The notes under the pieces were generated by a model. The model was not told the DNA's origin and ran no database searches. It saw only the letters and a program-made list of their open reading frames with translations. 64,000 bases of DNA, taken from assembly GCA_013368315.1 (NCBI GenBank), contig JAACJM010000292.1, positions 31,493-95,492 on the forward strand, in the 5' to 3' direction. Made by a program: the position numbers and the translations under genes. The stretch comes from Tetrapyrgos nigripes (lineage: Eukaryota; Basidiomycota; Agaricomycetes; Agaricales; Campanellaceae). Shown piece after piece: positions 13,330-61,531 of the stretch. Each line of letters begins with the position of its first letter. Positions within the stretch are counted from its first letter, which is position 1.

Positions 13330-14520
13330 TCACCACCACGACCCTTTCCACCACCGCCGCCACCACACCTTGCAAACCATCTAGAATCGCAGCGCGAAAT
13401 CTTCCCCTCCTTTCCAAACATCCCGCTACTACCGGAAGAAGCCTCAGTGACGCAGAGAAGGAACAGGCAGGCATCAGGAGGCGCCGGTCTTCTGGGAAAT
13501 CCTCTGGGCTGGCAGCAGATAAAATTGGAAACAAGGAAGGAACGGAAAAGGGTATGTCTGTCTTTTGAATAGATTTGCCAACAACGCTGACTCGGGTTGC
13601 CGCTGCAGAGTCAGAGCTCGACTTGTCTGGATCTGTCCCCACCGGCGCTGTGAATGTCCTCATGAAGTCAGGATCTGTCACTCGGGATGAACGCGGAAAC
13701 GAAAATACTATTGCCTCTACGGTTGATTCACATATCAGCACTTCCGGGTGTTCGCATGATACTCAGGCTGATCTTGAAGGTGAGTCTACTTCTACTGTTC
13801 TTTGATACTAACTGATCTTCTATGTAGCCCGTAAACGAAAATCTTCAGTCTGTACCAACGGCGAACAATGGTGAGTAATTGCGTACTTTTTATAGAAGTG
13901 ACCTCTCACAGGTACGCAGACAACGGGAATGAGGGCGTATCGGGTAAACCCAATTCTCCAAAGACCGACAAGCGTGAGTGACACACTTTCCTGGACTCTA
14001 ATCATTATTCACTGTCTCTCAGAATTGGAAGGTGGCAAGTTACCAGATAACCTGTGCGATTCCGTTGCGCGAATATCAAAGGGCATAGATGCACTTCTTT
14101 CCGTGATTACTGAAGGACGTGAGTAACACTAGCATATCAGATGGGGTGTCTGTTTTCACTGAGCGTGTATTGACTGTAGACCACAATTCGGAAAACGCGA
14201 GAAGTAACCGAACTCAGCGACATGCCACCGAGACTGAGAAGAAGGGGAATTTTCGCCGGCTGTTGGGTATTCCAGAATATCAGAGTCCATACACCGGTGA
14301 GTCTTCATGATAAGGCTATGACACTCCATGTATTTAACTGTGCTCGACGCTCGTAGGAACCCGAGACTATGACTATACTAAGAAATACCCTCAGGACGAG
14401 TTTGGCGAAGAGGCGAGGGAGAACGCACGAGTGTGGAAAGTGTACCTCGACGAGGCCGAAGCATTTGACGATGAGATGTTGAAGGGTTTTAGGGACACTC
14501 TTGATGCACTTCTTGTGTTT
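13330..14520 (+). pseudogene. Unit 0: truncated DUF6535-family gene, exons 1-7 only
   Basis: This is the most diverged relative of genes 1-4. The exon pattern is the same: leader with SLSDAEKEQAGIRRR, exon 2 from about 13609 to 13779, small exons, and exon 7 at 14357-14520. Exon 7 is 164 nt, the same length as in genes 1-4, and encodes the start of DUF6535 (RDYDYTKKYPQDEFGEEA, then ARVWKVYLDEAEAFDDEM). The start codon of the relatives is replaced by TTG. The sequence departs from the family about 30 bases into intron 7, exactly where the large duplication starting at 14551 begins, so the membrane and ankyrin parts are missing. It is a 5' relic, not a working gene. Confidence 0.7.
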
Positions 14521-16665
14521 GTGAGTACGAAATATCACCCTTATGGAACAGTGTTGGCGTGCTACGATGCTGAGGTCGTTTGGGTATTCGGATTTTGTAT
14601 GTGTGACTGGTGTGACATATGTGACAGTCAAAACATCGAGATTTTGACGGCGACGATTATAAGGAATAGTGGATCCAGAGATGCATAGAAGGGTGTAAGG
14701 ATTGCCTTTCGTCGGAGCCTGAAGCCATCAACGCCGGTGCATCCCCCTGGGAAGGCGAACGTGAAGACACTTGATCTGAGACGGTTGACTCGGATCCAAA
14801 TCTTCAAACCTCCAAATACTGAACTAGAAGGGGAAGAAACGCATATCCCCAGCACCCGCATCATGATTAACCCTTCAATTCTCCATCTCAATCAGTTTTT
14901 CATCCTGGGAGAAGGTTTGATCGCTACTGGACCAGGCGACATGCGAAGACATCCGCTGAGCTGAGTGTAGGTAAAGGGATTGAGTTGGGGACGTTTGGCG
15001 GGGACGTAGGGTGCATGGGTGTGTGGGTTGATCGATGCGTCTGGACGAAGAAAAGGAGAAAAGAAGTAGTTACTAGGTGTTTGTCGTCGTAGATGTCGTG
15101 AAATAAAATTCGAAGAAAAACAAAAGAGCGAACTCAAAGGCAGAAAACCGACACTGAAATCGAAAGCGAAAATGAAGAGGACCGGCGGAAGAGAACTAAA
15201 ACGTGAAAAAGATGAACGGAAACGTACCTGAAGTATCAACTCTCATACCCACTGCTATCACTATCACCACTACGTTCTCCCTCATCACATCCTTCTTCAC
15301 CACCACCTCTACTTCCAAAAACCGATGAAAACGCCTTGACATTATCATCCCAAACCTCCTTTACAACCACCCAAACCTGTCCTTTCCCCTCGTCAAAAGA
15401 CGCTCCGAGTGGTCCGGTTGGTTTAGGCGGTGATTCGGAGAAAACCCTTCTCGTGAGTGTGAGTTCTTTGGTGAAGGTGGAGGAGAAGGGCAGGAGGTTG
15501 GGGGTTGGGGTTGGGTTTACGGTCGTTGGAGTGGCTGTGCATCTGCGTCGAGGATGGAAGAAGTGGAGGGCAACGGGCACGCAGGGAAGTGTGTGGCTTG
15601 GAGACGAGGAGAGGCGTTTTGAGTCATTCTCTTCGTCCAGCAGCGCCGGCTGCTGCTCTTTCTGCGGCCAAACCACCTTTGGAACCGTCCAGGCTTTTGC
15701 GAATCCTCAATCAACTCTGACACCGTATGAAGAGATGGTAACGGCGGTATGAGAGCGAACGGGTGAAGGGGTGTCTAGGTCATTGGACGCGTTGGATGTG
15801 TCGGATTCGTTGTGTGGAGATGGGACTGGGGAGAAAAACAATGATTCGGAGAGTTTACGGTCAACGTTTGTAAGTCTTGAGGTGGACGTGGAGGTGGGTA
15901 TGGAGGTTGCTTCAGTGTCTAGAAACATAGAAAGAAAAGAAGAAAGAAAATGAAAAAAAAGCACAAATCGTTAGTATCATTCGTTTATTGTCGAAAAATA
16001 CGCATAAGAAAACTCACCTCCTGTAGTTTTACCACCACGCAGAACCCAAACACACATCACTCTTCGTTCCACTCGCACCCACAGAAGCCCTCCCATTCGC
16101 ACTACCCGCTTGGGCCCCATTCATCAAACCTCCCTGATACCTGGTATGTCGCGCTTGAGAATAGATTCGGTCTTCAAGCGACTTGGTTGGACGGGTTTAA
16201 GACGATTGACTAGCCCAAAGTCAACGCAGAACTGGCGTTTATGTAGGTGAGAGGCGTTGGGAGTGACGGACGGCCTTGGGGAAAATGAGGGAGACTGTTG
16301 CTCGGTATGCGCTGAGGAAGGAAGGAATGGTAGCACGGGTTCTAGAAGAAACACCGAGGGAACTGACGAGATGGAGTGGGTGACCGGGCATGCGAGCGAA
16401 CAGCCAAAGTGACTCGGCGTTAAAGTGAAGATAGTACACAGACGCGTAAGAATAGGCAGAGAATGAGTAGAAGGTGGAGATATATCAAATTTTGAGTGAT
16501 GAGTGGGTTGTCTCGGTGGAAGACGACGTCGAGAAAGTCGCGACAAACGGCGAGTTCCAAATTTGGCGTTCACATGCTTGGCACCGCATTGCTGTTGTGG
16601 AATCATACTTCCTGTCAGTACACACGTTGACTCTTTCTACTACCACCACCACTACCACACTCACC
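14521..16665 (-). other. 5' flank of gene 1, with worn minus-strand gene module
   Basis: No intact gene is visible. On the minus strand, coding-like pieces can be followed with frameshifts from about 16160 to 14900. They include a Gly/Ala/Ser-rich piece (NGAQAGSANGRASVGAS), a Ser/Thr-rich piece (TSIPTSTSTSRLTNVDR) and a piece with FDEGKGQVWVVVKEVWDD at about 15390-15340. The same module recurs at 29900-30920, 54330-55310 and 56730-57970. The family is not recognised. The gene 1 promoter lies at the end, in a TCTTTCTACTACCACCACC leader conserved between units. Confidence 0.4.
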
Positions 16666-19600
16666 ATGAACGATCCACAATCCCAGCGAAAAGTCCCCCC
16701 CTCCGTTCCAAACATCCCACAACCCTCGGAAGAAGCTCGAAATAGCCTGAGTGACGCAGAGAAGGGACAGGCAGGCATCGGACGGCGTCAAACCTCCGAG
16801 AAATCCTCTGCGCCGGCAGGAGATAATGCTGGAAACGAGAAAGGAAAGGGGAAGGGTGAGTCTGTCTTTTGGCTAGATTTGCCAACAACGCAGCTGACTC
16901 GAATGCAACTGCAGAGCCGAAATCTGACCCGTCCCAATCTGTTCCCGCCAGCACTGCGGGTGTTCCGGTGAAGCAGGGATCTGGCGTTAAGCATACTGGC
17001 GGAGATGTCAGAACTACAGCCTTGCCTCAGTCTGTGGGGCACTCCATTCATTCAATTGGCACGTCTTCTCAGCCTTCCTCAAATACTCAGGATAGTCGGA
17101 CAGATTCCGAAGGTGAGTCTGGTGTTATTCCTTCGTCTGACTTGCATACTGACTGCTCCGTTAGTCCCTAATGTTATGGAAGAAAAGTCCAAGTCTGAAC
17201 CTATGGCAAACAATAGTAAGTAATTACCTACTTTTGAAAGAAATGACCTCTCACATGTACACAGACACCAAGGATGAGGCTCCTGGTGTACCGGGTAAAC
17301 CAAATTCTCAAGAGACAAAGAATTGTAAGTAGCACACTGTCTTCACCTGGTGGTCCTGTCATGAATATTGGTTTTTTTTCTAGCATTGGAGGGTGGCACA
17401 GTGCCAGATAATCTGTCTGATTCCATTGCGCGGATCGCAAAGGGCCTAGATGTACTTCTTTCTTTGATTACTGAAGGCAGTGAGTAACACTAGTATATCA
17501 GATAGAGTGCCTTCATTGACTATGACTATAGCTGACAACTCGGAAAATGCTCAGCAGCATGTCAATGAGACTGAGAAGAAGAAGGGAAACCTTCGCCGGC
17601 TATTGGGCATCACAGAATATCAGAGTCCATACACTGGTGAGTCTTTACGATAATGCTATGACTCTCTGACCAATCAACTGTCTTTTTAGGAACCCGAGAC
17701 TATGACTATACTCGTAAATACCCTCAGGATGAGTTTGGCAAAGAGGCAAGCGAGAATGCCCGAGTGTGGAAAGTTTACCTCGATGAGGCAGAAACTTTTG
17801 ATGACGAGATGTTGAATGGTTTCAGGGACACTCTCGATGCTCTACTTGTCTTTGTAAGTGCAAAAAATGGTTCATATTGAATGCTTTGTTCACCTAAGTA
17901 ATAGGCAGCACTCTTTTCTGCTGTAGTGACATCTTTTGTCATTTCCACTGTTGTCAATCTTCAACCAGATTACACTGAGATCACAGCCAGGCTTATGCTT
18001 GAGCAGAACCTGCTGCTTCGTGCTGCTGGCAACACAACTGCTCAGCAATCTGTTCCAAAGGCATCAGTTGATTTGGATAATGCTGATGTCAGTACCAAGG
18101 ATCTTTGGATCAATGGGCTGTTCTTTGCCAGCCTGTCCCTCTCCCTGGCTACAGCTCTTCTCTCTGTGCTTGTTAAGCAATGGCTTCAAGCATATACTCT
18201 CTCCCTTCCCACTGGTAATGCTCAGGAGCGTGCCAAAATTCGTCAATTCCGCTACCTTGGATTTGAAATGTGGAAAGTTCCTGAGATCATTGGGCTCTTA
18301 CCTATCATACTCCATGCATCCCTTGGCCTCTTCATGGCTGGCCTCTCAGTCTATGTTTCAGAGCTTCATGAATCCCTTTGTTGGATTGTGGTCTCTGTCA
18401 CTGGGATATCCTTTTTGATGTATTTTGGGAGCATCATCATCCCTGTCATTCACATCCAATGCCCATATCGAGTCCCAATACTATTTTCCCTTCTCCAGCT
18501 CCTTATGTTCCCTCTCAGCATTTTTCAATATTTTTGGAAACTAGTCACCTATCATGGGCAAAGATATTATTACCACTTTCAGGGCAGCCACCTTTCAAAT
18601 CTTGCCTCACCTGAATGGCCCTCTGCTCCAAACACGTCTCTCAGGCATGCAGAGACCATGTTTCTTCAGCTTATCCCTCCCAGCTACATATTTGAACCAC
18701 TATCACCCTCATCTACTCAACATCACACTATGTTGGCTTATTGTCTTAAATGGCTACAATCTCTGCAATCAAATGATTCCATCCAGGAGGTGGTTCAGCA
18801 GGCTGTGCATTGTGTTTTCCATGATACTGCTTATAAACGACCAGATGGGGAAATCTTTGGCTTTCAACTGGCTTTGAAATGCTATGTGGATCTTGACTGG
18901 AACTCCATTCAAGCCTTCATATGGGATACACTGAGGAGGAGGGATGAAACAGATAATCACAAAGTCTGTTCATCACTCTACAGCCTCTGGAGAAAGGCTA
19001 AGGAGATTTCTCACTTTCCTCCTCAAGAACCAGGATATGCACTTCATGATGCAGCTGAAAATGGATACTTCCATATAGTCAAGGTCTTGGTTGAAAATGG
19101 GGCTGATGTTAATGCAGAGGGAGGGGATTATGGGTTTGCATTGCAAGCAGCAGCACTTTGGGGAGATTTGGATATTGTCAAGTATCTTGTGGAGAAGGGG
19201 GCAGATGTTAATGCAAAGGGAGGGGATTATGGGTTTGCATTGCATGCAGCAGCATATAGGGGGCATTTGGATGTTGTCAAGTATCTTGTGGAGAAGGGGG
19301 CAGATGTTAGTGCAGAGGGAGGGCATTTTGGGTTTGCATTGCAAGCAGCAGCATTTAGGGGAGATTTGGATATTGTCAAGTATCTTGTGGAGAAGGGGGC
19401 AGATGTTAATGCAGAGGGAGGGCAATATGGGTTTGCATTGCAAGCAGCAGCATTTGGGGGACATTTGGATATTGTCAAGTATCTTGTGGAGAAGGGGCAG
19501 ATGTTAATGCAAAGGGAGGTGAATATGGGTTTGCATTGACAGCAGCAGCATATATGGGGAACTTGGATATTGTCAAGTATCTTGTGGAGAAGGGGGCAGA

Positions 19601-20000
19601 TGTTAATCCAAAGGGAGGGGAATATGGGTTTGCATTGCAAGCAGCAGCAGATAGGCTAGATATTGTGAAGTATCTTGTGGAGAAGGGGGCAGATGTTAAT
19701 GCAGAGGGAGGGAGATATGGGTTTGCATTGCAAGTAGCTGCATACTGGGGAGAGTTGGATATTGTCAAGTATCTTGTGGAGAAGGGGGCAGATGTTAATG
19801 CAGAGGGAGGGGAATATGGGTTTGCATTGCAAGCAGCAGCATATAGGGGAAGGTTGGATGTTGTCAAGTATTTTGTGGAGGAGAAGGGTGTGGATGTTAA
19901 TGCAAAGGGAGGGAGATATGGGTCTGCACTCAAAGCAGCACAGAAGCAATATACACTAGAGGTAGTGAAATATCTCCAAGAGCATGGAGCAACTGAGTAG
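16666..20000 (+). CDS. Gene 1: DUF6535-ankyrin membrane protein, about 986 aa, one frameshift
   Basis: Exons 16666-16855, 16915-17112, 17165-17215, 17265-17324, 17384-17479, 17532-17636, 17690-17853 and 17905-20000; exons 1-7 total exactly 288 codons. Residues 1 to about 230 are Ser/Thr/Pro/Gln-rich and look disordered. Residues 232-440 are the DUF6535 domain (RVWKVYLDEAETFDDEM, then about four hydrophobic membrane segments such as GLFFASLSLSLATALLSVLV). A roughly 200-residue linker follows, then ten ankyrin repeats of 33 residues (19032-19998), ending KYLQEHGATE. DUF6535 is a basidiomycete membrane domain of unknown function; ankyrin repeats bind proteins. One G is missing in the G-run at 19494-19497 in the fifth repeat, so translation would end at 19539; the correct frame resumes at once and stays open to the TAG at 19998. 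This could be a real lesion, a slippage variant or an assembly error. Confidence 0.8.
19032..19998 (+). repeat. 99-bp coding tandem repeat (ankyrin array of gene 1)
   Basis: About ten units of 99 bp encode [20 protein letters not shown] plus [13 protein letters not shown]. The framework bases are almost identical from unit to unit, and each unit carries a GAGAAGGGGG run. The seventh unit is two codons shorter (AAADRLDIV). Confidence 0.9.
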
Positions 20001-34624: not shown

Positions 34625-37600
34625 ATGAACGATCCACAATCCCAGCGCAAAGTCCCCCCCTCCGTTCCAAACATCCCACAATCATCGGAAAAAGCGCAAA
34701 ACAGCCTAAGTGACGCAGAGAAGGGACAGGCAGGCATCGGACGGCGTCAATCCTCCGAGAAATCCTCTGCGCCGGCAGGAGATAATGCTGGAAACGAGAA
34801 AGGAAAGGGGAAGGGTGAGTCTGTCTTTTGGCTAGATTTACCAATAATGCCGCTGACTCGAATTGCAACTGTAGAGCCGAAATCTGACCCGTCCCAATCT
34901 GTTCCCGCCAGCACTGCGAGTGTTCCGTTGAAGCCGGGATCTGCCGTTAAGCATACTGGCAGAGATGTCGGAACTACAGCCTTGCCTCAGTCTGTTGGGC
35001 ATTCCATTCGTTCAAATAGCACGTCTTCCCAGCGTTCCTCAAATGCTCAGGATGCTCGGACAGATTCCGAAGGTGAGTCGGCTGTTGTTTCTTTGTCTGA
35101 CTTGCATACTGACTGTTCCGTTAGTCCGTAACGTTATGGAAGAAAAATCCAAGTCTGAACCTATGGTGAACAATAGTAAGTAATTACCTACTTTTGAAAG
35201 AAATGACCTCTCACATGTACACAGACACCAAGAATGAGGCTGCTCCTGGTGTACCGGGTAAACCAAATTCTCAAGAGACCAAGAACTGTAAGTAGCACAC
35301 TGTCTCATCCTGTTGGTCCTGTAACAAATATTGGTTTTTTTTTCTAGCATCAGAGGGTGGCATGGTGCCAGATAACCTGTCTGATTCCATTGCGCAGATC
35401 ACAAAGGGCCTAGATGTACTTCTTTCTTTGATTACTGAAAGCAGTGAGTAACATTAGTATATCAGATAGAGTGTCTTCATTGACTACACCTATAGCTGAT
35501 GACTCAGAAAATGTTCAGCAGCATGTCAATGAGACCAAGAAGAAGAAGGGAAACCTCCACCGGCTGCTGGGCATCATGGAATATCAGAGTCCATACACTG
35601 GTGAGTCTTTACAACAATGCTATGACTCTCTGACCAATCAACTGTCTTTTTAGGAACCCAAGACTATGACTATACTTGTAAATACCCTCAGGATGAGTTA
35701 GGCAAAGGGGCAAGTGAAAATGCCCGAGTGTGGAAAGTTTACCTTGATGAGGCGGAAGCTTTTGATGATGAGATGTTGAAGGGTTTTAGGGACACTCTCG
35801 ATGCTCTACTTGTCTTTGTGAGTGTGAAAGATGGTTCATATATAATACTTTATTGACCTGATTACTAGGCAGCACTCTTTTCTGCTGTAGTGACATCCTT
35901 TGTCATTTCCACTGTTGTCAATCTTCAACCAAATTACACTGAGATCACAGCCAGGCTTGTGTTTGAACAAAACAATCTACTGCGTGCAGCTATGAATACC
36001 ACTGCTCTGCAATCTGTTCCGCATGCATCAGTTGATTTGGATAACGCTGATGTCAGTACCAAGGATCTTTGGATCAATGGCCTGTTCTTTGCCAGCCTGT
36101 CCCTCTCCCTGGCTACAGCTCTTCTCTCTGTGCTTGTTAAGCAATGGCTTCAAGCATATACTCTCTCCCTTCCCACTGGTAATGCTCAGGAGCGTGCCAA
36201 AATTTGTCAATTCCGCTACCTTGGATTTGAAAAGTGGAAAGTTCCTGAGATCATTGGGCTCTTACCTATTATACTCCATGCATCCCTTAGCCTCTTCATG
36301 GCTGGTCTTTCAGTCTATGTTTCAGAGCTTCATGAATCCCTTTGTTGGATTGTGGTCTCTGTCACCAGCATATCCTTTTTGATGTATTTTGGGAGCATCA
36401 TCATCCCTGCCATTCACATCCAATGCCCATATCGAGTCCCAATACTATTTTCCCTTCTCCAACTCCTTATGTTTCCTCTCAGCATTTTTCAATATTTTTG
36501 GAAACTAGTCACCTATCATGGGCAAAGATATTATTACTATTCTCAGAACAGGCTGCCTAAATGGCCCTCTGCTCCAAACACATCTCTCAGGCATGCAGAG
36601 GCCATGTTTCTTAAGCAGACTCCTCCCACATTCAATGTCAGGAATGATCAATTTGAAATATCACCCTCATATAAACGACATCACAATATGTTGGCTTATT
36701 GTCTTCAATGGCTTCAGGATCTGCAGTCAAACAATTCCATCCAGGAGGTGGTTCATCAGGCTATGCATGGTGTCTTCCTTGATACCACTCTCAAATACCC
36801 ATGGGGGGATATCTATCAACCAGCTTTGAAATGCTATGTGGATCTTGACTGGAATTCTGTTGAAGCCTTCATATGGGATACACTGAGGAGGAGGGATGAA
36901 ACAGATAATCACAAAGTCTGTTCATCACTCTACAGCCTCTGGAGAAAGGCTAAGGAGATTTCTAACTTTCCTCCTCAAGAATCAGGATATGCACTTCATG
37001 ATGCAGCTGAAAATGGATACTTCCATATAGTCAAGGTCTTGGTTGAAAATGGGGCTGATGTTAATGCAGGGGAAGGGTTTTATGGGTTTGCATTGCAAGC
37101 AGCAGCATTTGAGGGAGATTTGGATATTGTCAAGCATCTTGTGGAGAATGGGGCAGATGTTAATGCAAAGGGGGGGGAATTTGGGTTTGCATTGCATGCA
37201 GCAGCAGAAGAGGGACATTTGGATATTGTCAAGTATCTTGTGGAGAAGGGGGCAGATGTTAATGCAAAGGAAGGGGAGTATGGGTTTGCATTGCAAGCAG
37301 CAGCATATGGGGACATTTAGATATTGTCAAGTATCTTGTGGAGAAGGGGGCAGATGTTGATGCAGAGGGTGGGGAATATGGGTTTCCATTGCGAGCAGCA
37401 GCATATATGGGTCATTTGGATATTTTCAAGTATCTTGTGGAGAAGGGGGCAGATGTTGATGCAGAGGAAGGGTTGTATGGGTTTGCATTGCAAGCAGCAG
37501 CAGAAGAGGGACATTTGGATATTTTCAAGTATCTTGTGGGGAAGGGGGAAGATGTTAATGCAAAGGAAGGGGAGTATGGGTTTGCATTGCAAGCAGCAGC

Positions 37601-38349: not shown

Positions 38350-38846
38350 CCCATACACCCACCTCACTAAATTGAGTCTTTCTCCTGACTACCTTGTCTA
38401 TTATTCTTTCTCAAAAAACAACCATCTTCCACTCTTCCTAAACCAGTCACTCTGTCTACCCTATTTTCCCAAATTCGTTTCGAACCCTCCATAACCCCTT
38501 CCAACTACGAACGGGTTCCATTTCCCCTTCCTCTCGACATCTTACACACCAAATACTGGGTCTCCCACAGAAGAAACATACGAGCGAATCCTTGGAGTTT
38601 CGACTGACACTTCATCTGCACAAGACGTTGGGTGTGGAAACTTATCTCAGGTGACGTAGTCCTCTCGACATTTTCATACATAACAGTGAAAGAGGACTTC
38701 GATACAGGAGAAACTGTGGTTCAGATTAGGGGACCTCTATTCTTTAGAGAACACGTCGACTACTCTCCATCATCATCCCCCGACTACGGACTGCCATCCT
38801 CCTTTATTCTAGGACCCAACTACCTAGCTTGAAGAAGAACTAGTAT

Positions 38847-40388
38847 ATGACAAGTCAACGATCCGCATCTGCAGACACGAACCTCCACTGTGCCGATTGA
38901 CCACACGTATTCCATCCCTTATCACTCCGAGACGCTGCCTACTTCATTGAGGATGGTAACGACCCCTGGGTTCCTTGCACCGTACAACCGTGTTTAAATA
39001 GATACAACACTCAGCGGCTTACTGCCGAGGAAATCCCAAGTGGGCTACACGTCGTAACCCAACTCCAAGAACTTGCAATCCGAAAAGCACATTCAAAAAC
39101 TAATCCCAAAACTGAACCAGAACAAGGAACCTCTACATCTCCTAACCCGCCTTCCGAATCTAACCCAGCACCAGAAACACCTTCCAATAACCCACCAGAA
39201 CCAGACAACCCCACTTCACCCCCTTCTTCTCCCACCATTCCATCTGCCGAAGGACCATCCATAGCCCCTCGTCGTCCTCCTACACCTCCTTCCCCAAATC
39301 CATCAGATCCAAACGACTCAATCATGGCTGATACACCTCCTATCAGGTCGAATGGTACTTCCAAACGAGGAAGAAAACCTGATGCCTTCAATGGGGAACA
39401 CAGCGAGGCAAAACGATGGCTGGCCTTGTTTAACAACTATCTGCGCATGAATAAAAGCAAGTACCCTACTGAGGAAAGTCAGGTCTCGTTATTCCTATCA
39501 TTCTTCACGGGAGAAAAAGGAGGAGATTGGGCAACACAACGACTAACCGAACGTGATGAGGATGAAGAGGACGAAGAGTTGGAAAAGACGCCAGAGAAGC
39601 GTAGATGGATCACTCTAAAACAGATACGTGACAGGTTCAAAAAGGACTTCAGAGCTCTTGCCTCGGATGATGTGGCGAGAACGAAAATCAAGTTTGCTAG
39701 GATGAAAGGGATGGATATCAGCAGCTACAACAGCATCTTTGATACATACGGAGAGGAATCTGACTTTGGAGAAACAGCACTGTTGGAATTCTACCAGGAT
39801 GGACTACCACCTAAACTCTGAGAGGCAGTCGGAAGAACGTATCCAAAGTGGGATGATTTCGAGGAATACAAAGAAAGGGCTGTAGAGCTTCATTTAGAAT
39901 GGTTGAAGGAACGGGAAAGGCAAGGATGCTGGAAAACCCCTTCAGCGACGAGGAGTAATCCGGGTCTGACTCAGGGAAGAACGGTAGCAAGCGTCAATGC
40001 GCTTATGAATATGGGACCAGGTGCTAACTCGTCCTTTACTCCATTCCCCAAACTGACACCTGATGAAAGGGACCAACTCCGAAAACTAGGAGCGTGCTTC
40101 GCATGTAGACAACCTGGACATATGAGCAACGAATGTCCAACGATCCCAAAACCGACATCTCAAAACGCCTCCCGAACCTTCTCTCCTCGTACTGTTCGAA
40201 CAGCCGAGATTGCAACAACACCTTCATCGTCTCACTCATCACCAGTAACGGTAGCTCAGGCGTCTTCATCTCGAAACGTAATCAAGGATATTTCCGACAT
40301 AGTTAACAAAGTTAAAGGATTGGAAGGGGAAGAAAAGGAACAAGCAGCCGTCTATTTAAAGGACATTATGTCCAAATTGGATTTTTGA
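38847..40388 (+). pseudogene. Gag, two in-frame TGA codons
   Basis: A single frame from the ATG at 38847 to the TGA at 40386 is interrupted by TGA at 38898-38900 and 39819-39821. A Pro/Ser-rich section lies at about 39100-39310. The capsid-like part follows from the ATG at 39324 (FNGEHSEAKRWLALFNNYL, typical of Ty3 Gag), and a CCHC zinc knuckle CFACRQPGHMSNEC at about 40096-40137 binds the RNA. The true start may be 38847 or 39324. Both stops are one C-to-T change from CGA. A small frame at 38632-38832 upstream has no recognised content. Confidence 0.75.
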
Positions 40389-41146
40389 ATTGCTCCTCTG
40401 CTACGTCGTCAGTAGGAGTTGAACAGTACACCGGACAGTTAAAAAGCAATCGATATAGTGTGTTATACTCCTCAAGTGAGCAAATCTTTCCTTCAAAATT
40501 AAGAATGTCGGCAATCACTCGTAACCGGCAGGTACCATCAATCACGCTCAAAACTGAATTAATCGGCAAAGTTACTGGCAGAAAAATCGACGCAAACACC
40601 CTAATAGACAGCGGTGCAGAAGGCATAATTATCAATAGCCGGTTTGCACAAGAAAATCAACTTACCCTCCTTCCTATCAAAAACCCATTCCCAGTACGAA
40701 ACGTTGATGGTTCCGAGAACACTATGGGATGGGTACGACAATATACCACGCAGAATCTCCGTATCTACTCCCAAGACAACAAAGCATATCACGAGGAACA
40801 GGCCGAATTCTACGTAACAGACATTGGGGATCACGATATAATCCTCGGTACCGACTGGTTGGAAGAACATAACCCAGAAATAGATTGGTCATTTTCACGA
40901 ATAGATATGATCAGATGCCCAGAGACGTGTATCATAGCAAACCCCCCCATTCTCCATTTAAAAACTAAAACGAAACCTTCGAAACCAGCGGTCGCCAACC
41001 CACGGACCTACCATAAAGATTACCAAGTCAGATGGTTGGAACCAATTGGACGATTCAAACCAGTTGTTCAATCAAAAATTGCAGGACGATGCCGTCAGAT
41101 TCCTATTCGATTCCTATTTGATCCTTCCATCGGAGTTCGGAGGTAA
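40385..41146 (+). pseudogene. Pol, protease part
   Basis: The frame lies at -1 relative to gag and overlaps its end, which suits ribosomal frameshifting. The aspartic protease active site LIDSGAEG is at residues 73-80, and ILGTDWL (about 157) is the second conserved block of Ty3 proteases. The frame ends at 41144-41146. RT continues in another frame that is open only from about 41122, so an indel lies at about 41095-41122. Confidence 0.75.
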
Positions 41147-42012
41147 CGGCGATCTTTACTGAAGACAGTTGTGGGAGAGATACAATCCCAGAACAGTGGG
41201 AACAAGACATGATGGAAGAACTGTTGGGAAATGAGGAAAGGGTAACGATGCTGAGCGGGGAAACACCAGAGACACCAAACCTGAACATCCACACAGGATT
41301 TATGAAGGCACAAGAACTTGCAGAGGCAGCTCAGAATGCCCAAACCGACATACCTCTTAAAGATAAGATTCCTTCACAATATCATCGATTTCTACAAGTC
41401 TTTGACAAACAAACCTCAGAACGACTACCAAGACACGGCGAATGGGATCACGCCATCGAACTAAAACCGGACTTTGAACCGCGTCCCTGCAAAACGTATC
41501 CTTTATCCCCAAATGAACAGAAGGAACTTGACGAATTCATCAGAGAGAACCTAGAGAAGGGATACATAAGGCTGTCAAAATCTCCTATGGCAAGTCCTTT
41601 CTTCTTTGTAAAAAAGAAGGACAGAAAACTACGTCCAGTACAGGATTATCACGCGTTAAACAGAGGGACTATCAAAAACGAATACCCCCTACCGCTCATA
41701 TCAGAACTCGTAGATAAACTGAAGGGGGCACGGATATTTTCCAAAGTCGACCTCAGATGGGGATATAACAATATACGCATAAAGGAAGGAGATGAATGGA
41801 AAGCAGCTTTTAAGACCAACCGTGGTCTTTTCGAACCAACGGTGATGTTCTTCAGTCTTATGAATTCTCCAGCCACATTCCAAGCGATGATGAACAATCT
41901 TTTCAAGGACCTGATCGACTCCGGAAAAGTCGTGATTTACATGGACGACATTTTGATATTCACGGAATCACTAGAAGAGCATCGATACATGGTAAAACAA
42001 GTACTCGCATGA
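41122..42012 (+). pseudogene. Pol, reverse transcriptase fingers and palm
   Basis: Typical Ty3 RT blocks: [38 protein letters not shown] with the first catalytic Asp, and YMDDILIF with the catalytic pair. The frame ends at 42010-42012 just after [10 protein letters not shown]. Relatives have about five more residues before YAQPEKC, and here these are missing, so a small deletion causes the frameshift. The ATG at 41209 is internal and not a real start. Confidence 0.8.
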
Positions 42013-42013
42013 C

Positions 42014-42625
42014 TTGTACGCTCAACCGGAAAAATGCACTTTTGAAACCAATTCGGTAGAGTTCCTAGGCCTCATCGTTTCACACAATACACTAGCAATG
42101 GACCCAGTCAAAGTCGAAGGCGTAACCAAATGGCCAACCCCACGTAACGTTAAAGACGTACAGTCATTCCTTGGCTTTGGAAATTTCTATCGTCATTTCA
42201 TATGTGATTTTTCAAAAATCGCACGGCCACTGTTCGATCTGACAAAGAAGGATGAACCATGGAGATGGTCAGATGAAACTGAAAGAGCCTTTCAGGCACT
42301 CAAAGATGCGTTCACATCTTCCCCAGTCCTCCTTATGCCCAATCATTCTAAACCGTACCGAGTAGAAGTCGATGTGTCAGATTACGCTACAGGAGGTATC
42401 TTGCAACAACAAGGACTGGACGATAAATGGCACCCCATAGCTTATCTATCAAAAGCTTTATCCGAAACTGAACAAAACTACAACATTCACGATAAAGAAC
42501 TGTTGGCAATCATACGCGGACTGGAAGCCTGGCGACACTACCTTGAAGGCGGACCACATACTATCGAAATCTTAACTGATCACAACAACCTCAGATACTT
42601 CACTACTGCTCAGAAACTCAGCTGA
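42014..42625 (+). pseudogene. Pol, RT thumb and RNase H
   Basis: YAQPEKCTFETNSVEFLG marks the RT thumb and SFLGFGNFYRHFI the connection. RNase H follows with the Asp of RVEVDVSDYATGG (residue 120) and LTDHNNL near the end. TGA at 42623-42625 separates it from integrase in the same frame. Relatives have KLSRRQAR here, so the TGA replaces an Arg codon. Confidence 0.8.
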
Positions 42626-44506
42626 CGACAGGCGAGAATGGCCTTGTTCCTGACTAGATTCGACTTCACACTTACTCACAAACCCGGAAGCCTTAATCGA
42701 AGTGATCCACTCTCTCGAAGACCAGACCATAAAGAGGGGGTCGAGAATGACAACAAAGATAGGGTCTTGCTTGATCCCAAGTTCTTCAGGATCCGAGCAA
42801 CAAGGCCAGGAACGGTAATCGCAATTGGAGATACAGAGTTGAGAAGACGAATTAAAGATTGCCCAGAGAAGGATGCCGAAGTCGTGGGTGCGTTACAAAC
42901 TATTTTTAACAACGGACTGCGTGTGTTGGCAAAAAACTTGCAGGAATGGAACTACAAAGATGGAATCATCCTGTTCCGAGGAAAGATCTACATCCCAAAC
43001 GACCAACAACTCAGGCAGGATATTGTGAAAATGCACCACGACAGCCTTACCGCGGGACATCCGGGACGATTCAAGATGTACGAACTCGTTAGCAGAGAAT
43101 TCTGGTGGCCTGGTATGTCAGTATTTGTTTGTGACTACGTTGAAGGATGCGCTACTTGTCAGTTAACCAAGGCAAATAACCACCCAGCACATGTACCATT
43201 AATCCCGAACGAGATACCAGAACGACCCTTCAGCACGATTACAACCGACTTCATCACGGATCTGCCAGAATGTGATGGTTTTAACGCAATTCATGTCACT
43301 GTCGATCGCGCAACAAAAACGGTTGTCATTTCTCCATGCAGAAAGGATATCGACAGTGATGGGACAATAGACCTCCTATTCGATAACACTTGGCGACAAT
43401 ACAGCTTGTGGGACAAAATGGTGTCCGACCATGGACCTCAATTCGCAAGCCAAGTAATGAAGGGGATATACGCTAAGCTGGGAATCACCTCAGCACTCAG
43501 TACAGCTTATCATCCACAAACAGATGGCGAGACAGAAAGGTTCAACCAAGAACTCGAACAATACCTTCGAACCTTCTGTAACTACTGCCAAGATGATTGG
43601 GTTAAATACCTACCCTACGCCGAGTTCTGCCACAATACGCGAGTCCATTCAGCAACTGGAAAATCGCTGTTCGAATTACTCCATGGATATCTACCCCGAC
43701 TCTTCCCTACAATCAATCCAACTTCGCATGTGCTGAAAGTCGAAGAACACCTTCAGAATCTGGACATACTCCGGGAAGAACTAAAAGCAAGTCTATCGAC
43801 AGCAGCGGAAACGATGAAGGAACAAAACAAGGACCATACAAATGAGAGGACGAAATTTAAAGTTGGAGACAAGGTGTTGCTAGACGGAAAAAATCTGAAG
43901 ACAACAAGGCCAAAAGCTAAGTTGGCAAATTGTTATCATGGCCCATTCGAAATCACTGACGTTATTGGTGAAGTCAATTATCGGCTCAAGTTACCGAATA
44001 CCTGGCGGATTCATCTGGTTTTCCATGCTTCACTTCTATCGCCATACAGAGAAACCGAAGCTCACGGGGTAAACTACCCAGGGGAACCAGCGGAATTACT
44101 TCCCGAAGACAATGAATACGATGTGGAAGCAATCTTGGATTCAAAACCAACAAGGAACCTTCGGGGAGTACAATACCTTGTCAAATGGCTAGACTACGCT
44201 GACTCAGAAAATTCATGGGAACCGGCATCAGGACTGACGAAGCTAAAAGATATGATCAAAGCCTTCCACCAACAACATCTGAACACTTATCGACCAACAA
44301 ACCTCATACGACCAGGAACGACAGTGCGCTCATTGGGAGTCACCATAGGAGATATATGGCGGAGTACTCGTGTGCTTCAAGCGAAAGCACAACTCAAAGG
44401 AGGAACATTGTCATGGATCGCTAGTGTTCTATGTCCTCCTTCCCACTCCACCTGGCAACCGAACTCGGAATTCCGTCACCATTCATCCATTGCATTTCCC
44501 CGTTAA
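42626..44506 (+). pseudogene. Pol, integrase with chromodomain
   Basis: The open frame continues after the TGA to 44504-44506. Counting from the ATG at 42638, residues 133-174 hold the HHCC zinc domain (HHDSLTAGHPG, CATCQ). The DDE core uses D204 (TTDFITDLP), D264 (VSDHGPQF) and E300 (HPQTDGETER). A chromodomain at about 493-545 (EYDVEAILDSK, YLVKWLDY, SWEP) would guide insertion to modified histones. This section is intact and seems able to fold. It is listed as pseudogene only because it belongs to a broken Pol. Confidence 0.85.
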
Positions 44507-44604
44507 TAACGCCCTACCTTAACGACACTAATAGACGGTGTTTACTGTCAAACTCGTCTCCGAGCGACAGCTCGCTCAACACTTACGTCACACTAAGCAA
44601 CAAC

Positions 44605-44612
44605 TATAAAAG
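44605..44612 (+). promoter_or_regulatory. TATA box before the extra retrotransposon ORF
   Basis: TATAAAAG lies 90 bases upstream of the ATG at 44695, between the end of pol and the 3' LTR. Confidence 0.5.
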
Positions 44613-44694
44613 ATACCACACCAGAAAGGAGGACAACAGAACAACATCCATCACTACCAGCCAAACAACAACCACTCGTACTCTCACTACCACA

Positions 44695-44934
44695 ATGTCA
44701 ACTGCTCCCTCTACCACCTCTACCACTCAGAATGGATCTCTCACGCGCCCAACTAACGGAGGGTGTTGTACATACGGACAACGCTCGGGACGTCAATGTC
44801 GACTCTCGAAACAACACCAAGGACCTCACAACGGATGCAAACGTTGCACATGGGGAGGAGAGGATGGACCAGGACGATGTATATTGGGGAGAGGACATAG
44901 AGCGACGTGTGTAATTCATCAAACATCCCTATGA
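44695..44934 (+). CDS. Extra retrotransposon ORF: 79-aa double zinc-motif protein
   Basis: ATG at 44695, TGA at 44932-44934. After a Thr/Ser-rich head come two related Cys/His motifs: C25-x9-C35-x5-H41-x3-H45, then C51-x10-C62-x5-H68-x3-C72, with C48 and H75 as extra candidates. The two halves read alike (CTYGQRSGRQC and CTWGGEDGPGRC), so they look like an internal duplication. Such spacing suits zinc or nucleic-acid binding. It is placed after integrase, where ordinary Ty3 elements have no gene, and has its own TATA box. No family is recognised. The longer in-frame extension back to 44431 overlaps the end of pol and looks less protein-like. Confidence 0.5.
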   Translation: MSTAPSTTSTTQNGSLTRPTNGGCCTYGQRSGRQCRLSKQHQGPHNGCKRCTWGGEDGPGRCILGRGHRATCVIHQTSL

Positions 44935-44957
44935 GCAGAGCATAGAAGGAACCTTGG

Positions 44958-45179
44958 ATGGGCAGCGTATGGGGTGCACACATCATCCTACAAAACGACG
45001 ACAACGACAGATGGGGTGCACCAGGCTGGGGTTCTGTAACCAACGTCACGGGATGGGGTGAACCCAGCGACTTCGCCGACTATTGGCCAGAACAGGGGGA
45101 ATTGGACAGACGACTTCGTGAACAATGGGCGAAACACTGGACGGATTGCCTGCTGAGCTCCGGTGAAAGCTCGTCATGA
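44958..45179 (+). CDS. Second extra ORF of the retrotransposon, Trp-rich, 73 aa
   Basis: ATG at 44958; the stop (TGA) lies inside the first bases of the 3' LTR. The product is rich in Trp and acidic residues (DRWGAPGWGSV, DFADYWPEQGELDRRLREQW). It might be a second exon of the preceding ORF or a separate peptide. Reading into the LTR is common for the last gene of retroelements. No family recognised. Confidence 0.3.
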   Translation: MGSVWGAHIILQNDDNDRWGAPGWGSVTNVTGWGEPSDFADYWPEQGELDRRLREQWAKHWTDCLLSSGESSS

Positions 45180-45700
45180 ATCGCTCCCTGCCTATTCATT
45201 TCCTTTCTATTCTTTCCCCTTTACTACCCATTTCCCACTCTATTTACTCTTAACCCCATAAACATCAACCAGTCCCCATCGTCGTCTATAGTTACTATCT
45301 CTTCAGATCTCTGACTCACACACTTATCTCCTCTGCTTTCTATCTCCACGGACATTCCCACTGTCAATCATTCTTTATGATCCAGTACCTTCATCTATCC
45401 ATATTTAAACTTATCATTCTCTCGCCTTTGACGTCTCCACATGATACCGTCTATTATTACCTACTTCTTCCCATCTGCTCTCACACCACTTATATACCGA
45501 CTATCCTTGTAACCTATTCCTTAGTTCGTTCACTTCATCTCCGCTCCGTACTACTACGCAGTGTAGAGCCTAGTCAGCTTACTACCTTATCTCTCTATCT
45601 CTCTTTCTCTCTATCTCTTTTGATCAATCTATCCTCTTGTAATCGGCTTTCTCGTATTGTGTGACTTGGGTGGTTATTAAGTGTACCGACGACCTTGACA
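45172..45700 (+). repeat. 3' LTR, 529 bp
   Basis: Begins CGTCATGAATCGC where the 5' LTR has TGTCATG, and ends GACCTTGACA. A typical long polypurine tract before it is not obvious (GGTGAAAG is the best candidate). Confidence 0.95.
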
Positions 45701-45756
45701 AAGGCAACGAACCAGAGGTAGTGAAATATCTGCAAGAGCATGGGGCAACTGAGTAG

Positions 45757-47553: not shown

Positions 47554-50315
47554 ATGAACAATCCACAATCCCAGCACAAAACCCCCCCCTCCGTTCCAAA
47601 CATCCCACAACCATCGGAAGAAGCTCAAAATAGCCTAAGTGGCACAGTGAAGGGACAGGCGGGCATCAGATAGCATCAATCCTCAGAGAAATCCTCTGCA
47701 CCAGCAGCAGATAGGGCTGGAAACAAGAAAGGAAAGGGGAAGGGTGAGTCTGTTTTTTGGCTAGATTTACCAATGACACCGCTGACTCGAATGCAACTGG
47801 AGAGCTGAAATCTGACCTGTCTCAATCTGTTGCTGCCAGCACTGCGAGTGTTCCGGTGAAGCCAGGATCTTTCGTGCACAATGCAGGCGAAAAAAATGAA
47901 ACTCCTGCAGCCTTGCCTCAGTCTACTGGACACTCTGTTCGTTCAAACAGTATGGCTTCCCAGCATTCCTCAAATGTTCAGGATGCTCGGACAGATTCCA
48001 AAGGTGAGTCTGCCATTGTTTCTTCGTCTGACTTGGATACTGACTGTTCCGTTAGTCCGTAATATTAATGTTATGGGAAAAAAATCCAAGTCTGAACCTA
48101 CGGCAAACAATAGTAAGTAATTACCTACTTTTGAAAGAAATGTCCTCTCACATGTATGCAGACACCGAGGATGAGGCTGCTCCCAGTGTACTGGGTAAAC
48201 CAAATTCTCAAGATACCAACAAGGGTAGGTAACACACTGTCTCATTCTGTTGGTCCCATACTGAATATTCAGAATTAGAAGGTGGCAAGTCACCAGATAA
48301 TACCATTGTACAAATCTTGGAGGGTATAGATGCACTTCTTTCCTCACTTCAGGAAACCAGTGAGTAATCATAGTATATTGGATAGAATGCCTGTTTTCAT
48401 TGACTACATGATGGCTGTACTGTAGACATGGGCTCCGAAAATGCAAAGCCAAGTAACCCAACTTGTCAGCTTGACACTGAGAAGAAGCAAGGGAATCTTT
48501 GCCAGCTGCTGGGTATCCTGGAATACCAGGCTCATACACTGGTGAGTCTTTATGATAATCCTACAACTCTCTGATTAATCAACTGTTCTCTTAGGAACCC
48601 GAGACTACAACTATACTCATAAATACCAAGCAGATAAATTTGGCAAAGAGGCAAGGGAGAATGCACGAGTGTGGAAATTTTACCTTGATGAGGCGGAAAC
48701 TTTTGATGATGAGATGTTGAAGGGTTTTAGGGACACTCTTGATGCTCTACTTGTCTTTGTAAGTGCAAAAAATGGTTCATATTGAATGCTTTGTTCACCT
48801 AAGTAATAGGTGGCACTCTTTTCTGCTGTAGTGACATCTTTTGTCATTTCCACTGTTGTAAATCTTCAACCAGATTACGCCAAGATCACAGCAAGTCTTA
48901 TGCTTGAGCAGAACCAGCTGCTTTGTGCTGCTAGGAGCACAACCACTCTGCAATCTGTTCCACAGGCATCAGTTAATTTGGATAACACTGATGTCAGTAC
49001 CAAGGATCTTTGGATTAACGGCCTGTTCTTTGCCTCCCTGTCCCTCTCCCTGGCTACAGCTCTTCTTTCTGTGCTTGTTAAGCAATGGCTTCAAGTAAAT
49101 AATTTCTCCCTTCCCACTGGTAATGCTCAGGAGCGTGTCAAAATCCATCAATTCCACTACCTTGGATTTGAAAAGTGGAGAGTTCCTGAGATCATTGGGC
49201 TCTTACCTATTATACTCCATGCATCCCTTGGCCTCTTCATGGTTGGCCTTTCAGTCTACGTTTCGGGGCTTCACCAATCCCTTTGTTGGATTGTGGTCTC
49301 TGTCACTGGGATATCCTTTTTGATGTATTTTGGGAGCATCATCATCCCTGTCATTCACATCCAATGCCCATATAGAGTCCCAATACTTTTTGCCCTCCTC
49401 CATCTTCTTATGTTTCCTCTCAGCATTTTTCAATATTTTTGGAAACTAGTCACCTATCATGGTCAAAATAACTACCATGATTCTTGGAGCAGCCACCTTT
49501 CAAATCTTGCCCCACCTGAATGGCCCTCTGCTCCAAACATGTCTCTCAGGCACACAGAGACCATGTTTCTTCACCTTATCCCTCTCACATGGGAAGACAA
49601 TTACCAATTATCATCCTCATCTACTCGACATCACACTATGTTGGCTTATTGCCTTAAATGGCTACAATCTCTGCAATCAAATGATTCCATCCAGGAGGTG
49701 GTTCATCAGGCTGTGCATGGTGTTTTCCATGATACTGCTTATAAAGATCTATAGGGGGGAATGAAAGACTTTCCAGCTTTGAACTGCTATGTGGATCTCA
49801 ACTGGAATTCCATTCAGGCCTTCATATGGGGTACACTGAGGAAGAGGGATGAAACAGATAATCACAAAGTCTGTTCATCACTCTACAGCCTCTGGAGAAA
49901 GGCTAAGGAGATTTCTCACTTTCCTCCTCAAGAACCAGAATATGCACTTTATGATGCAGCTGAAAATGGATACTTCCATATAGTCAAGGTGTTGGTTGAA
50001 AATGGAGCTGATGTTAATGCAAAGGGAGGGCATTATGGGTTTGCATTGCAAGCAGCAGGAGGAGAGGGACATTTGGATATTGTCAAGTATCTTGTGGAGA
50101 AGGGGGCAGATGTTAATGCAGAAGGAGGGACATATGGGTTTGCATTGCAAGCAGCAGCACCATGGGGACATTTGGATATTGTCAAGTATCTTGTGGAGAA
50201 GGGGGCAGATGTTAATACAGAGGGAGGGAGATATGGGTCTGCGCTCAAAGCAGCACAGATTGTACATCGACCGGAGGTAGTGAAATATCTGCAAGAGCAT
50301 GGGGCAACTCAGTAG
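47554..50315 (+). pseudogene. Gene 3: DUF6535-ankyrin gene with several stops, four ankyrin repeats
   Basis: Exons by comparison: 47554-47743, 47803-48003, 48056-48112, 48162-48224, 48273-48359, 48426-48541, 48595-48758 and 48810-50315. Lesions: TAG at 47671-47673 in exon 1, a one-base loss near the end of exon 6 (48531, CAGGCTCATACAC), and TAG at 49752-49754 in the linker. The membrane part of DUF6535 is still open (GLFFASLSLSLATALLSVLV, IIGLLPIILHASLGLFM). Only four ankyrin units follow, ending KYLQEHGATQ. It is the shortest array of the four and the most diverged in exons 2-6. From the GTG at 48810 a 314-residue frame is open, so a truncated membrane protein is conceivable but unlikely. 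Confidence 0.8.
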
Positions 50316-50429: not shown

Positions 50430-50688
50430 GATAGAGAGACATTTGGATATTGTCAAATATCTTGTAGAGAAGGGGGCATATGTGAATGCAAAGGGAGGGG
50501 AGTATGGGTTTCCACTGCACGCAGCAGCATATATGGGCAGGTTGGATGTTGTCAAGTATTTTGTGGAGGAGAAGAGTGTAGATGTTAATGGAAAGGGACA
50601 GAAATATGGGTCTGCACTCAAAGCAGCACAGGAAGGAGATGAACCAGAGGTAGTGAAATATCTGTGAGAACATGGAGCCACTGAGTAG
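50430..50688 (+). pseudogene. Detached ankyrin-repeat tail behind gene 3
   Basis: About 115 bases after the gene 3 stop, a second ankyrin tail starts abruptly ([20 protein letters not shown], a unit with AAAYMGRLDVVKYFVEE, then GSALKAAQEG). It ends with the usual EHGATE and stop; a TGA replaces a codon just before (KYL*EHGATE). It is followed by the normal 3' flank. This is a remnant of another copy left by recombination within the repeat array. Confidence 0.8.
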
Positions 50689-58525: not shown

Positions 58526-61500
58526 ATGAACGACCCACAATCCCAGCGAAAAATCCCCCCCTCCGTTCCAAACATCCCACAACCCTCGGAAGAAGCTCGA
58601 AATAGCCTGAGTGACGCAGAGAAGGGACAGGCAGGCATCGGACGGCGTCAATCCTCCGAGAAATCCTCTGCGCCGGCAGGAGATAATGCTGGAAACGAGA
58701 AAGGAAAGGGGAAGGGTGAGTCTGTCTTTTGGCTAGATTTGCCAACAACGCAGCTGACTCGAATGCAACTGCAGAGCCGAAATCTGACCCGTCCCAATCT
58801 GTTCCCACCAGCACTGCGGGTGTTCCGGTGAAGCAGGGATCTGGCGTTAAGCATACTGGCGGAGATGTCAGAACTACAGCCTTGCCTCAGTCTGTGGGGC
58901 ACTCCATTCATTCAATTGGCACGTCTTCTCAGCCTTCCTCAAATACTCAGGATAGTCGGACAGATTCCGAAGGTGAGTCTGGTGTTATTCCTTCGTCTGA
59001 CTTGCATACTGACTGCTCCGTTAGTCCCTAACGTTATGGAAGAAAAGTCCAAGTCTGAACCTATGGCAAACAATAGTAAGTAATTACCTACTTTTGAAAG
59101 AAATGACCTCTCACATGTACACAGACACCAAGGATGAGGCTCCTGGTGTACCGGGTAAACCAAATTCTCAAGAGACCAAGAATTGTAAGTAGCACACTGT
59201 CTTCACCTGGTGGTCCTGTCATGAATATTGGTTTTTTTTCTAGCATTGGAGGTGGCACAGTGCCAGATAACCTGTCTGATTCCATTGCGCAGAGCGCAAA
59301 GGGCCTAGATGTACTTCTTTCTTTGATTACTGAAGGCAGTGAGTAACACTAGTATATCAGATAGAGTGCCTTCATTGACTATGACTATAGCTGACAACTC
59401 GGAAAATGCTCAGCAGCATGTCAATGAGACTGAGAAGAAGAAGGGAAACCTTCGCCGGCTATTGGGCATCACAGAATATCAGAGTCTATACACTGGTGAG
59501 TCTTTACAATAATGCTATGACTCTCTGACCAATCAACTGTCTTTTTAGGAACCCGAGACTATGACTATACTCGTAAATACCCTCAGGATGAGTTAGGCAA
59601 AGAGGCAAGCGAGAATGCCCGAGTGTGGAAAGTTTACCTCGATGAGGCAGAAACTTTTGATGACGAGATGTTGAAGGGTTTCAGGGACACTCTCGATGCT
59701 CTACTTGTCTTTGTAAGTGCAAAAAATGGCTCATATTGAATACTTTGTTCACCTAAGTAATAGGCAGCACTCTTTTCTGCTGTAGTGACATCTTTTGTCA
59801 TTTCCACAGTTGTCAATCTTCAACCAGATTACACCAAGATCACAGCAAGTCTTACGCGTGAGCAGAACCTGCTGCTTCGTGCCGCTGGCAACACAACTGC
59901 TCAGCAATCTGTTCCAAAGACATTAGTTGATTTGGATAACACTGATGTCAGTACCAAGGATCTTTGGATCAATGGGCTGTTCTTTGCCAGCCTGTCCCTC
60001 TCCCTGGCTACAGCTCTTCTCTCTGTGCTTGTTAAGCAATGGCTTCAAGCATATACTCTCTCCCTTCCCACTGGTAATGCTCAGGAGCGTGCCAAAATTT
60101 GTCAATTCCGCTACCTTGGATTTGAAAAGTGGAAAGTTCCTGAGATCATTGGGCTCTTACCTATTATACTCCATGCATCCCTTGGCCTCTTCATGGTTGG
60201 CCTTTCAGTCTATATTTCAGAGCTTCATCAATCCCTTTGTTGGATTGTGGTCTCTGTCCCTGGGATATCCTTTTTGATGTATTTTGGGAGCATCATCATC
60301 CCTGTCATTCACATCCAATGCCCATATCGAGTCCCAATACTATTTTCCCTTCTCCAGCTCCTTATGTTCCCTCTCAGCATTTTTCAATATTTTTGGAAAC
60401 TAGTCACCTATCATGGGCAAAGATATTATTACCACTTTCAGGGCAGCCCTTGCCTCACCTGAATGGCCCTCTGCTCCAAACACATCTCTCAGGCATGCAG
60501 AGACCATGTTTCTTCAGCTTATCCCTCCCAGCTACATATTTGAACCACTATCACCCTCATCTACTCAACATCACACTATGTTGGCTTATTGTCTTAAATG
60601 GCTACAATCTCTGCAATCAAATGATTCCATCCAGGAGGTGGTTCAGCAGACTGTGCATTGTGTTTTCCATGATACTGCTTATAAAGGACCAGATGGGGAA
60701 ATCTTTGGCTTTCAACTGGCTTTGAAATGCTATGTGGCTCTTGACTGGAATTCCATTCAAGCCTTCATATGGGATACACTGAGGAGGAGGGATGAAACAG
60801 ATAATCACAAAGTCTGTTCATCACTCTACAGTATCTGGAGAGAGGCTAAGAGGATTTCTTACATTCCTCTCCTGGAACCAAGATATACACTTCATGATGC
60901 AGCTAAAAATGGATACTTCCATATAGTCAAGGTCTTGGTTAAAAATGGGGGTGATGTTAATGCAGAGGGAGGGTTTTATGGGTTTGCATTGCAAGCAGAA
61001 AATGGATACTTCCATATAGTCAAGGTCTTGGTTAAAAATGGGGCTGATGTTAATGCAGAGGAGGGTTTTATGGGTTTGCATTGCAAGCAGAAAATGGATA
61101 CTTCCATATAGTCAAGCTCTTGGTTGAAAATGGGGCTGATGTTAATGCAAAGGGAGGGTTTGCATTGCAAGCAGCAGCATTTCAGGGACATTTGGATATT
61201 GTCAAGTATCTTGTGGAGAAGGGGGCAGATGTTAATGCAGAGGAGGGTTTTATGGGTTTGTATTGCAAGCAGCAGCATTTAGGGGAGATTTGGATATTGT
61301 CAAGTATCTTGTGGAGAAGGGGACAGATATTAATGTAAAGGGAGGGGATTTTGGGTTTCCATTGCAAGCAGCAGCATATAAGGGGAAGTTGGATGTTGTC
61401 AAGTATCTTGTGGAGAAGGGGCAGATGTTAATGCAAAGGGAGGGGAATTTGGGTCTGTACTCAAAGCTGCACAGGAAGGAGTTCAACCAGGGATAATGAA

Positions 61501-61531
61501 ATATCTGCAAGAGCATGGAGCAACAGAGTAG
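58526..61531 (+). pseudogene. Gene 4: DUF6535-ankyrin gene with multiple frameshifts
   Basis: Exons by comparison with gene 1: 58526-58715, 58775-58972, 59025-59075, 59125-59184, 59244-59338, 59391-59495, 59549-59712 and 59764-61531. Exon 5 lacks one G (GGAGGTGG at about 59250). The linker lacks 11 bases at about 60450 (GGCAGCC|CTTGCC). In the ankyrin array bases are missing near 61060, 61240 and 61418-61421. The array also carries a local duplication of the first unit ([20 protein letters not shown] appears three times). The membrane part stays open (59785-60462). Its upstream sequence and exons 1-7 are nearly identical to gene 1, so the lesions are recent in family terms. Confidence 0.85.

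Follow-up and report, generated by a model that had tools for sequence, protein, structure and literature searches.

The window, meaning here the whole stretch of 64,000 nucleotides that was analysed (G000:C287:31493-95492), lies in the 98.5 Mb, 587-contig genome of Tetrapyrgos nigripes and holds four DUF6535-ankyrin genes, all of them disrupted, and one leader-only fragment (Table 1). A whole-genome search places DUF6535 (PF20153) in the window four times, with E values from 4.5e-52 to 2.2e-48, and a 99-bp ankyrin array follows each occurrence. The four units score 169.9 to 182.0 bits for PF20153, above the curated Pfam cut-off of 23.9 bits, as against 190.4 bits for an intact paralogue; the match in unit A, C287:49259-49849, corresponds to window positions 17767-18357. 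With a profile of the 99-bp repeat, 10 matches are found in unit A, 9 in B, 4 in C (and 3 further downstream) and 6 in D, in agreement with the original prediction of 10, 9, 4 and a rearranged number, and the array of unit A has a Tandem Repeats Finder score of 1208. That prediction counted five related units with membrane segments. Four do carry DUF6535 and arrays, whereas the fifth is a leader with neither a transmembrane helix nor an array; its best piece in a tblastn search with residues 1-350 of the family protein P0001 reaches 55% over residues 182-292, and its DNA is 70-71% identical to the other leaders.

Table 1. Features of the DUF6535-ankyrin locus, in window coordinates
Feature	Position	Strand	Content
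Leader-only copy	13398..14526	+	Leader exons and exon for first ~30 DUF6535 residues
Unit A (D9758_017222, P0012)	16666..20000	+	Leader, DUF6535, 10 ankyrin repeat matches
Unit A, DUF6535 domain	17692..18360	+	Two exons, intron ~17854-17904
Unit B (D9758_017224, P0010)	34625..45756	+	Leader, DUF6535, 9 repeat matches
Ty3/gypsy-type LTR element in unit B	37806..45700	+	LTR pair; protease, integrase and chromo domains
Unit C (D9758_017227, P0021)	47554..50315	+	Leader, DUF6535, 4 repeat matches, canonical tail
Detached second array piece and tail, downstream of unit C	50436..50688	+	3 repeat matches
Unit D (D9758_017230, P0024)	58526..61531	+	Leader, DUF6535, 6 repeat matches, rearranged

The intact long exon is found in none of the four window copies, a disruption that the original prediction had overlooked. 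The array of unit A is frameshifted at a run, starting in its motif at 19489, of 4 G rather than 5. In unit B the frame shifts near 37309, and the LTR element splits the last repeat, such that the tail lies at 45715-45753; a 5-base target duplication, AAGGC, flanks the element at 37801-37805 and 45701-45705, and the two LTRs match at 528 of some 535 aligned positions. Unit C carries an in-frame stop at 49752-49754. Several frameshifts are present in unit D, the 5' part and flank of which are 91.8% identical to unit A. The public protein models of these loci, by our own comparison, bypass the damage through truncation or unusual introns. A further full copy upstream of the window on the same contig, L031, has a likewise frameshifted array.

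It could be argued that the window frameshifts are sequencing errors and that the local genes are intact. Unit A, with one single-base frameshift only, fits such an account, given that the G-run is five bases long at 85 of 88 comparable places and four bases long at the other 3. Against it stand the 7.9-kb LTR element and target duplication of unit B, the stop of unit C and the several indels of unit D, which are not homopolymer slips, and sequencing error is an improbable explanation for the locus. The window copies look like pseudogenes or, where the damage consists of single-base indels, possibly mis-sequenced genes. PF04998, examined for the reading of the assembly as two unmerged haplotypes, gives 9 rows at five places in the genome.

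Other mobile and duplicated sequence is present in the window. A solo LTR-like copy at 22876-23397, on the minus strand and thus opposite to the element of unit B, is about 83% identical to its LTRs, and a Helitron at 6668-9898 (+) consists of adjacent open frames for Helitron_like_N (6668-8107) and a PIF1 helicase (8108-9898). A recent 5-kb duplication, 14550-19646 versus 56370-61471 at 91.8% identity, spans most of units A and D. A match to the mating pheromone MFA1_2 at 37321-37887 was rejected, as its translation is out of frame and its score falls under the Pfam cut-off.

The genome as a whole contains at least 40 DUF6535 loci with a downstream ankyrin array, by our own count of the rows listed (25 close relatives and 15 others). 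Integrity was examined in 24 copies, the 4 of the window and 20 from elsewhere, with leader exons checked in L035. In 10 of them (L032-L036, L042-L045 and L047) the long last exon has no interruption between the membrane part and the canonical tail, and L046 has an open long exon with an atypical end. An intact canonical long exon is missing in 14 of the 24, which counts against reading these genes as receptors. The spliced model of the L035 paralogue has eight exons and 1021 residues and is identical to D9758_010607 of T. nigripes. On contig C61, copies L037, L038, L040 and L042 have a second, more decayed ankyrin array some 1 to 1.4 kb past the first, with frameshift positions in common among these second arrays; window 60969-63349 is 90% identical to the second-array part of L042.

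Diversity was measured on a repeat set in which 214 profile matches gave 113 full, ungapped repeats, 112 usable ones and 106 kept, from 23 arrays, with the second arrays of four copies excluded. The repeats average 87% nucleotide identity, 0.872 within arrays and 0.868 between them. High internal conservation (HIC) has been defined as repeats over 85% identical across at least 100 residues (PMC4986451, in the portion consulted). Four or more full units are present in 41 protein arrays, of which 7 come up to that 85% level by our own measure, identity to the array consensus, which differs from the original HIC program. "Near-identical", the term first applied to these repeats, was therefore slightly overstated. 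Most of the diversity falls on four of the 33 codons, 9, 19, 20 and 22. By pairwise counting, with a bootstrap over arrays, piN is 0.519 at these codons and 0.075 at the rest, with piS at 0.123 over all codons, so that piN/piS is 4.21 at the four codons (95% bootstrap 3.18-5.27) and 0.61 elsewhere. When the data are split in halves, the same four codons are selected in 200 of 200 cases, and the held-out ratio never falls below 3.27. Among close repeats compared as 30 independent pairs, the four codons take 39.6 of 90.6 amino-acid changes, and the synonymous total is 13.4. Positive selection at repeat positions, which the original prediction proposed to look for, is thus supported by pairwise counting among the paralogues of one genome.

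Similar positions vary in other genera. In Lentinula arrays and in the high-conservation arrays of Stygiomarasmius, positions 9, 19 and 20 are among the top four by entropy and 22 is among the top six. Internal conservation is low in one Stygiomarasmius subfamily, and the pattern of variable positions is absent in the 11 Rhodocollybia units.

The full-length structure model has a mean pLDDT of 72.9, with blocks of 91-98 over residues 771 to 1010 or so and lower values for the first repeats. It places position 9 at the tip of the ankyrin hairpin and 19-20 where helix 1 ends, with 22 immediately beyond. The closest solved structures include designed ankyrin proteins (DARPins), and the four positions resemble those randomised in DARPins. 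The membrane helices come first in the protein and the array last. In 17 copies, piN/piS is 0.22-0.36 for the membrane part and 0.68-0.85 for the linker, and by this measure the membrane part is under purifying selection. Of 95 sequences, 82 carry an N-glycosylation sequon in the stretch that links TM1 to TM2, whereas shuffling gives a mean of 36; together with the charge pattern, this conserved sequon suggests that the array is cytosolic. The proposal of a fast-changing sensor array on a DUF6535 membrane part is strengthened by both results, piN far above piS at four interface positions and constraint on the membrane part.

The repeats behave as one pool, given that the nearest repeat lies in the same array for 15 of 106, which is within the range of shuffles (mean 6.4, maximum 15). 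The nearest relative by 5' block is also the nearest by 3' flank in only 3 of 21 copies. In controls, the two halves of the 5' block agree in 5 of 21 copies, as against 10 of 21 for the halves of the 3' flank. The claim that recombination is confined to the array was therefore dropped, since the mismatch of 5' and 3' ends goes little beyond the control with 5' halves; because the controls disagree too, exchange looks family-wide.

Such exchange, together with the LTR element in unit B, the damage to every window copy and the 14 of 24 copies that are not canonically intact, would fit a multiplying set of mostly dead genes, in which the arrays owe their variation to decay and gene conversion, not to function. 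Relaxed constraint alone predicts a ratio of about 1, however, and the ten copies with an open long exon, taken by themselves, give a piN/piS of 3.56 (2.37-5.68) at the four codons and 0.49 elsewhere. The membrane part is also conserved. A family varying through decay is quite unlikely.

The same repeat type occurs on NACHT-type genes. A search with 99 residues of the unit A array gives 246 matches, many of them on contigs without a listed DUF6535 match, and four array stretches were read (L051, L052, L053 and L054). The upstream frame, scanned in L053, is NPHP3_N (NACHT-type) at 56.6 bits, although NPHP3_N is a broad P-loop family with matches in 9 of 14 control genomes, 5 of them over the cut-off. 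L054 has a frame that is near-identical to it by eye, and by our own reading NPHP3_N lies upstream of a same-strand array for at least 11 further matches. In the 30 repeat units of L051, L053 and L054, codons 9, 19, 20 and 22 are again variable, with piN 0.526 versus piS 0.118 (ratio 4.5), and position 21 varies too. The 35 units of the L052 array have piN 0.296 versus piS 0.022, with positions 9, 10, 20 and 22, not 19, the most variable. L052 (G000:C232:92800-98000) is a single open frame of 1557 residues that follows an NLR-like segment and encodes 35 or more ankyrin repeats, 94% identical at the nucleotide level. In the consulted part of PMC4986451, Dyrka and colleagues report NLRs as the main carriers of such repeats and positive selection on the concave face formed by ankyrin repeats. 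That NACHT-type genes share the repeat type and the variable positions favours the idea of the array as sensor.

Fungal NLRs with highly conserved ANK, TPR or WD40 arrays (HNWD/het-e type) are one comparison; ANK-NLRs among them are described in the same part of PMC4986451. The likeness consists of a C-terminal ankyrin array of the GGxYGxALQAA type, carried by the NACHT-type genes here as well, diversity at the same four codons, piN above piS and a conserved framework. Diversification of interface positions, a mark of HIC receptors, is seen in the DUF6535-ankyrin arrays as the piN/piS of 4.21 from pairwise counting, and the C-terminal superstructure-forming repeats of STAND proteins are present as well. 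In DUF6535-ankyrin proteins, a multi-helix membrane domain replaces the NACHT or NB-ARC of fungal NLRs. Over residues 1-671 of P0001, DUF6535 is the sole Pfam match with an E value up to 1, and the precomputed domains of this protein are DUF6535 and ankyrin families only; neither source holds a NOD (NACHT or NB-ARC). By domain content, then, DUF6535-ankyrin proteins are not STAND proteins, and of the earlier idea of a membrane version of STAND-type receptors the C-terminal array stands and the NOD does not. No fusion of DUF6535 to NACHT occurs among 120 (of 206) matches listed, nor in other DUF6535 listings.

Among the matches listed, DUF6535-ankyrin proteins occur in Stygiomarasmius, Lentinula, Rhodocollybia, Mycena, Flagelloscypha, Termitomyces, Tephrocybe and Arthromyces. 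A pattern search finds the GGxYGxALQAA-type repeat in 30 of 32 such proteins in Tetrapyrgos, 11 of 16 in Stygiomarasmius, 4 of 4 in Lentinula, 1 of 1 in Rhodocollybia and 1 of 8 in Mycena, and in 0 of 45 from Flagelloscypha, Termitomyces, Tephrocybe and Arthromyces. Given this distribution, the fusion probably predates the array type. Most DUF6535 proteins among the matches listed lack an ankyrin domain, so that the membrane domain has a task independent of the array; these ankyrin-free proteins, with the same Pfam domain, are common notably in Schizophyllum and Armillaria, and five of them (P0093, P0106, P0059, P0115 and P0119) show no other convincing Pfam domain. In Schizophyllum commune, the ankyrin-free P0150, P0152, P0153 and P0154 are 94-95% identical in blocks with most of the membrane domain and 59-84% identical in later alignment blocks, and may be alleles of a variable locus or paralogues. 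Another hint of variation between strains comes from Lentinula edodes, where P0040 has 9 repeat matches and its close relative P0122 (492 residues, in a 6-sequence cluster) stops short of the array. Either the strains differ here or the gene model is at fault, perhaps by truncation.

Plants offer a second comparison. ACD6 and LR14A are ankyrin-transmembrane proteins of a multi-gene family with an immune role, and ACD6 is reported to conduct calcium (PMC11387256 and PMC7878491, in the parts consulted). Both combine an ankyrin array with several membrane helices, as DUF6535-ankyrin proteins do, and so show, by analogy, that this layout can serve immunity with the domain order reversed: ankyrin comes first in LR14A and last here. 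No plant-type membrane domain is found among the Pfam matches to the first 671 residues of P0001, and LR14A, in the text consulted, shows no coding variation, unlike the DUF6535-ankyrin arrays. WeiTsing, an Arabidopsis ER calcium channel (PMC10441888; PDB 8hf2), is also counted among the closest known systems.

The array may instead bind endogenous partners that change fast, such as cargo, signalling or developmental proteins, with DUF6535 as a membrane scaffold and no role in self/non-self recognition. A general basic role would suit a domain found mostly without ankyrin among the matches listed, and in the consulted part of PMC12387923 one Flammulina DUF6535 transcript drops strongly under high CO2, a developmental treatment. 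A piN/piS above 4 at four surface codons, on a repeat type carried by NACHT-type genes, is rather the pattern reported for fungal recognition receptors in the portion of PMC4986451 consulted, and partners of this kind are an unlikely, though not negligible, explanation. No function for DUF6535 (PF20153, IPR045338) was found in the literature searched, where the one mention is in an expression table in that part of PMC12387923; this agrees with the earlier remark that no assigned function is known for DUF6535-ankyrin proteins. Nor is a family of this kind described in the consulted sections of PMC12881547 or PMC9815663.

We consider it reasonably likely that DUF6535-ankyrin proteins are NOD-less, membrane-anchored recognition receptors. 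Their sensor variation is like that of immune receptors in the same genome, which suggests a second class of recognition receptor, one bound to membranes. In the proposed mechanism, a disordered cytosolic leader would be followed by DUF6535, with most likely four helices in a membrane of the secretory pathway and a fifth hydrophobic stretch of predicted topology, and then by a helical linker and the cytosolic array. The concave face of the array would bind a variable ligand through four residues per repeat; candidates are an allorecognition partner or a foreign protein, be it a self, non-self or parasite product. Specificity would keep shifting through exchange among dozens of paralogues and selection on the four residues, and broken copies, as in the window, would be by-products. 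Binding may alter the state of DUF6535, as an oligomer, an ion-permeable assembly or a docking platform, and thereby start a death or defence response, or the membrane domain may hold the sensor at a membrane. In its strongest form, which is put forward only tentatively, some mushrooms would have a second innate recognition system, in which an NLR sensor array sits on DUF6535 as a ligand-gated, cation-permeable oligomer, an independent counterpart of ACD6 and LR14A. Recognition and execution would therefore be fused in one polypeptide without a NOD.

The N-termini of basidiomycete NLRs are poorly annotated, according to the parts of PMC4986451 and PMC9815663 consulted. By combining an NLR-type sensor array with a conserved membrane domain, this large family supplies concrete candidate loci in agarics. 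To our knowledge, little is known at the gene level about post-fusion non-self recognition in basidiomycetes. Together with these loci, the interface, defined as four residues in each repeat, and the predicted topology can be tested in crossable agarics. If the receptor reading is true, the sensor array, and not the NOD, would be the shared currency of fungal recognition.
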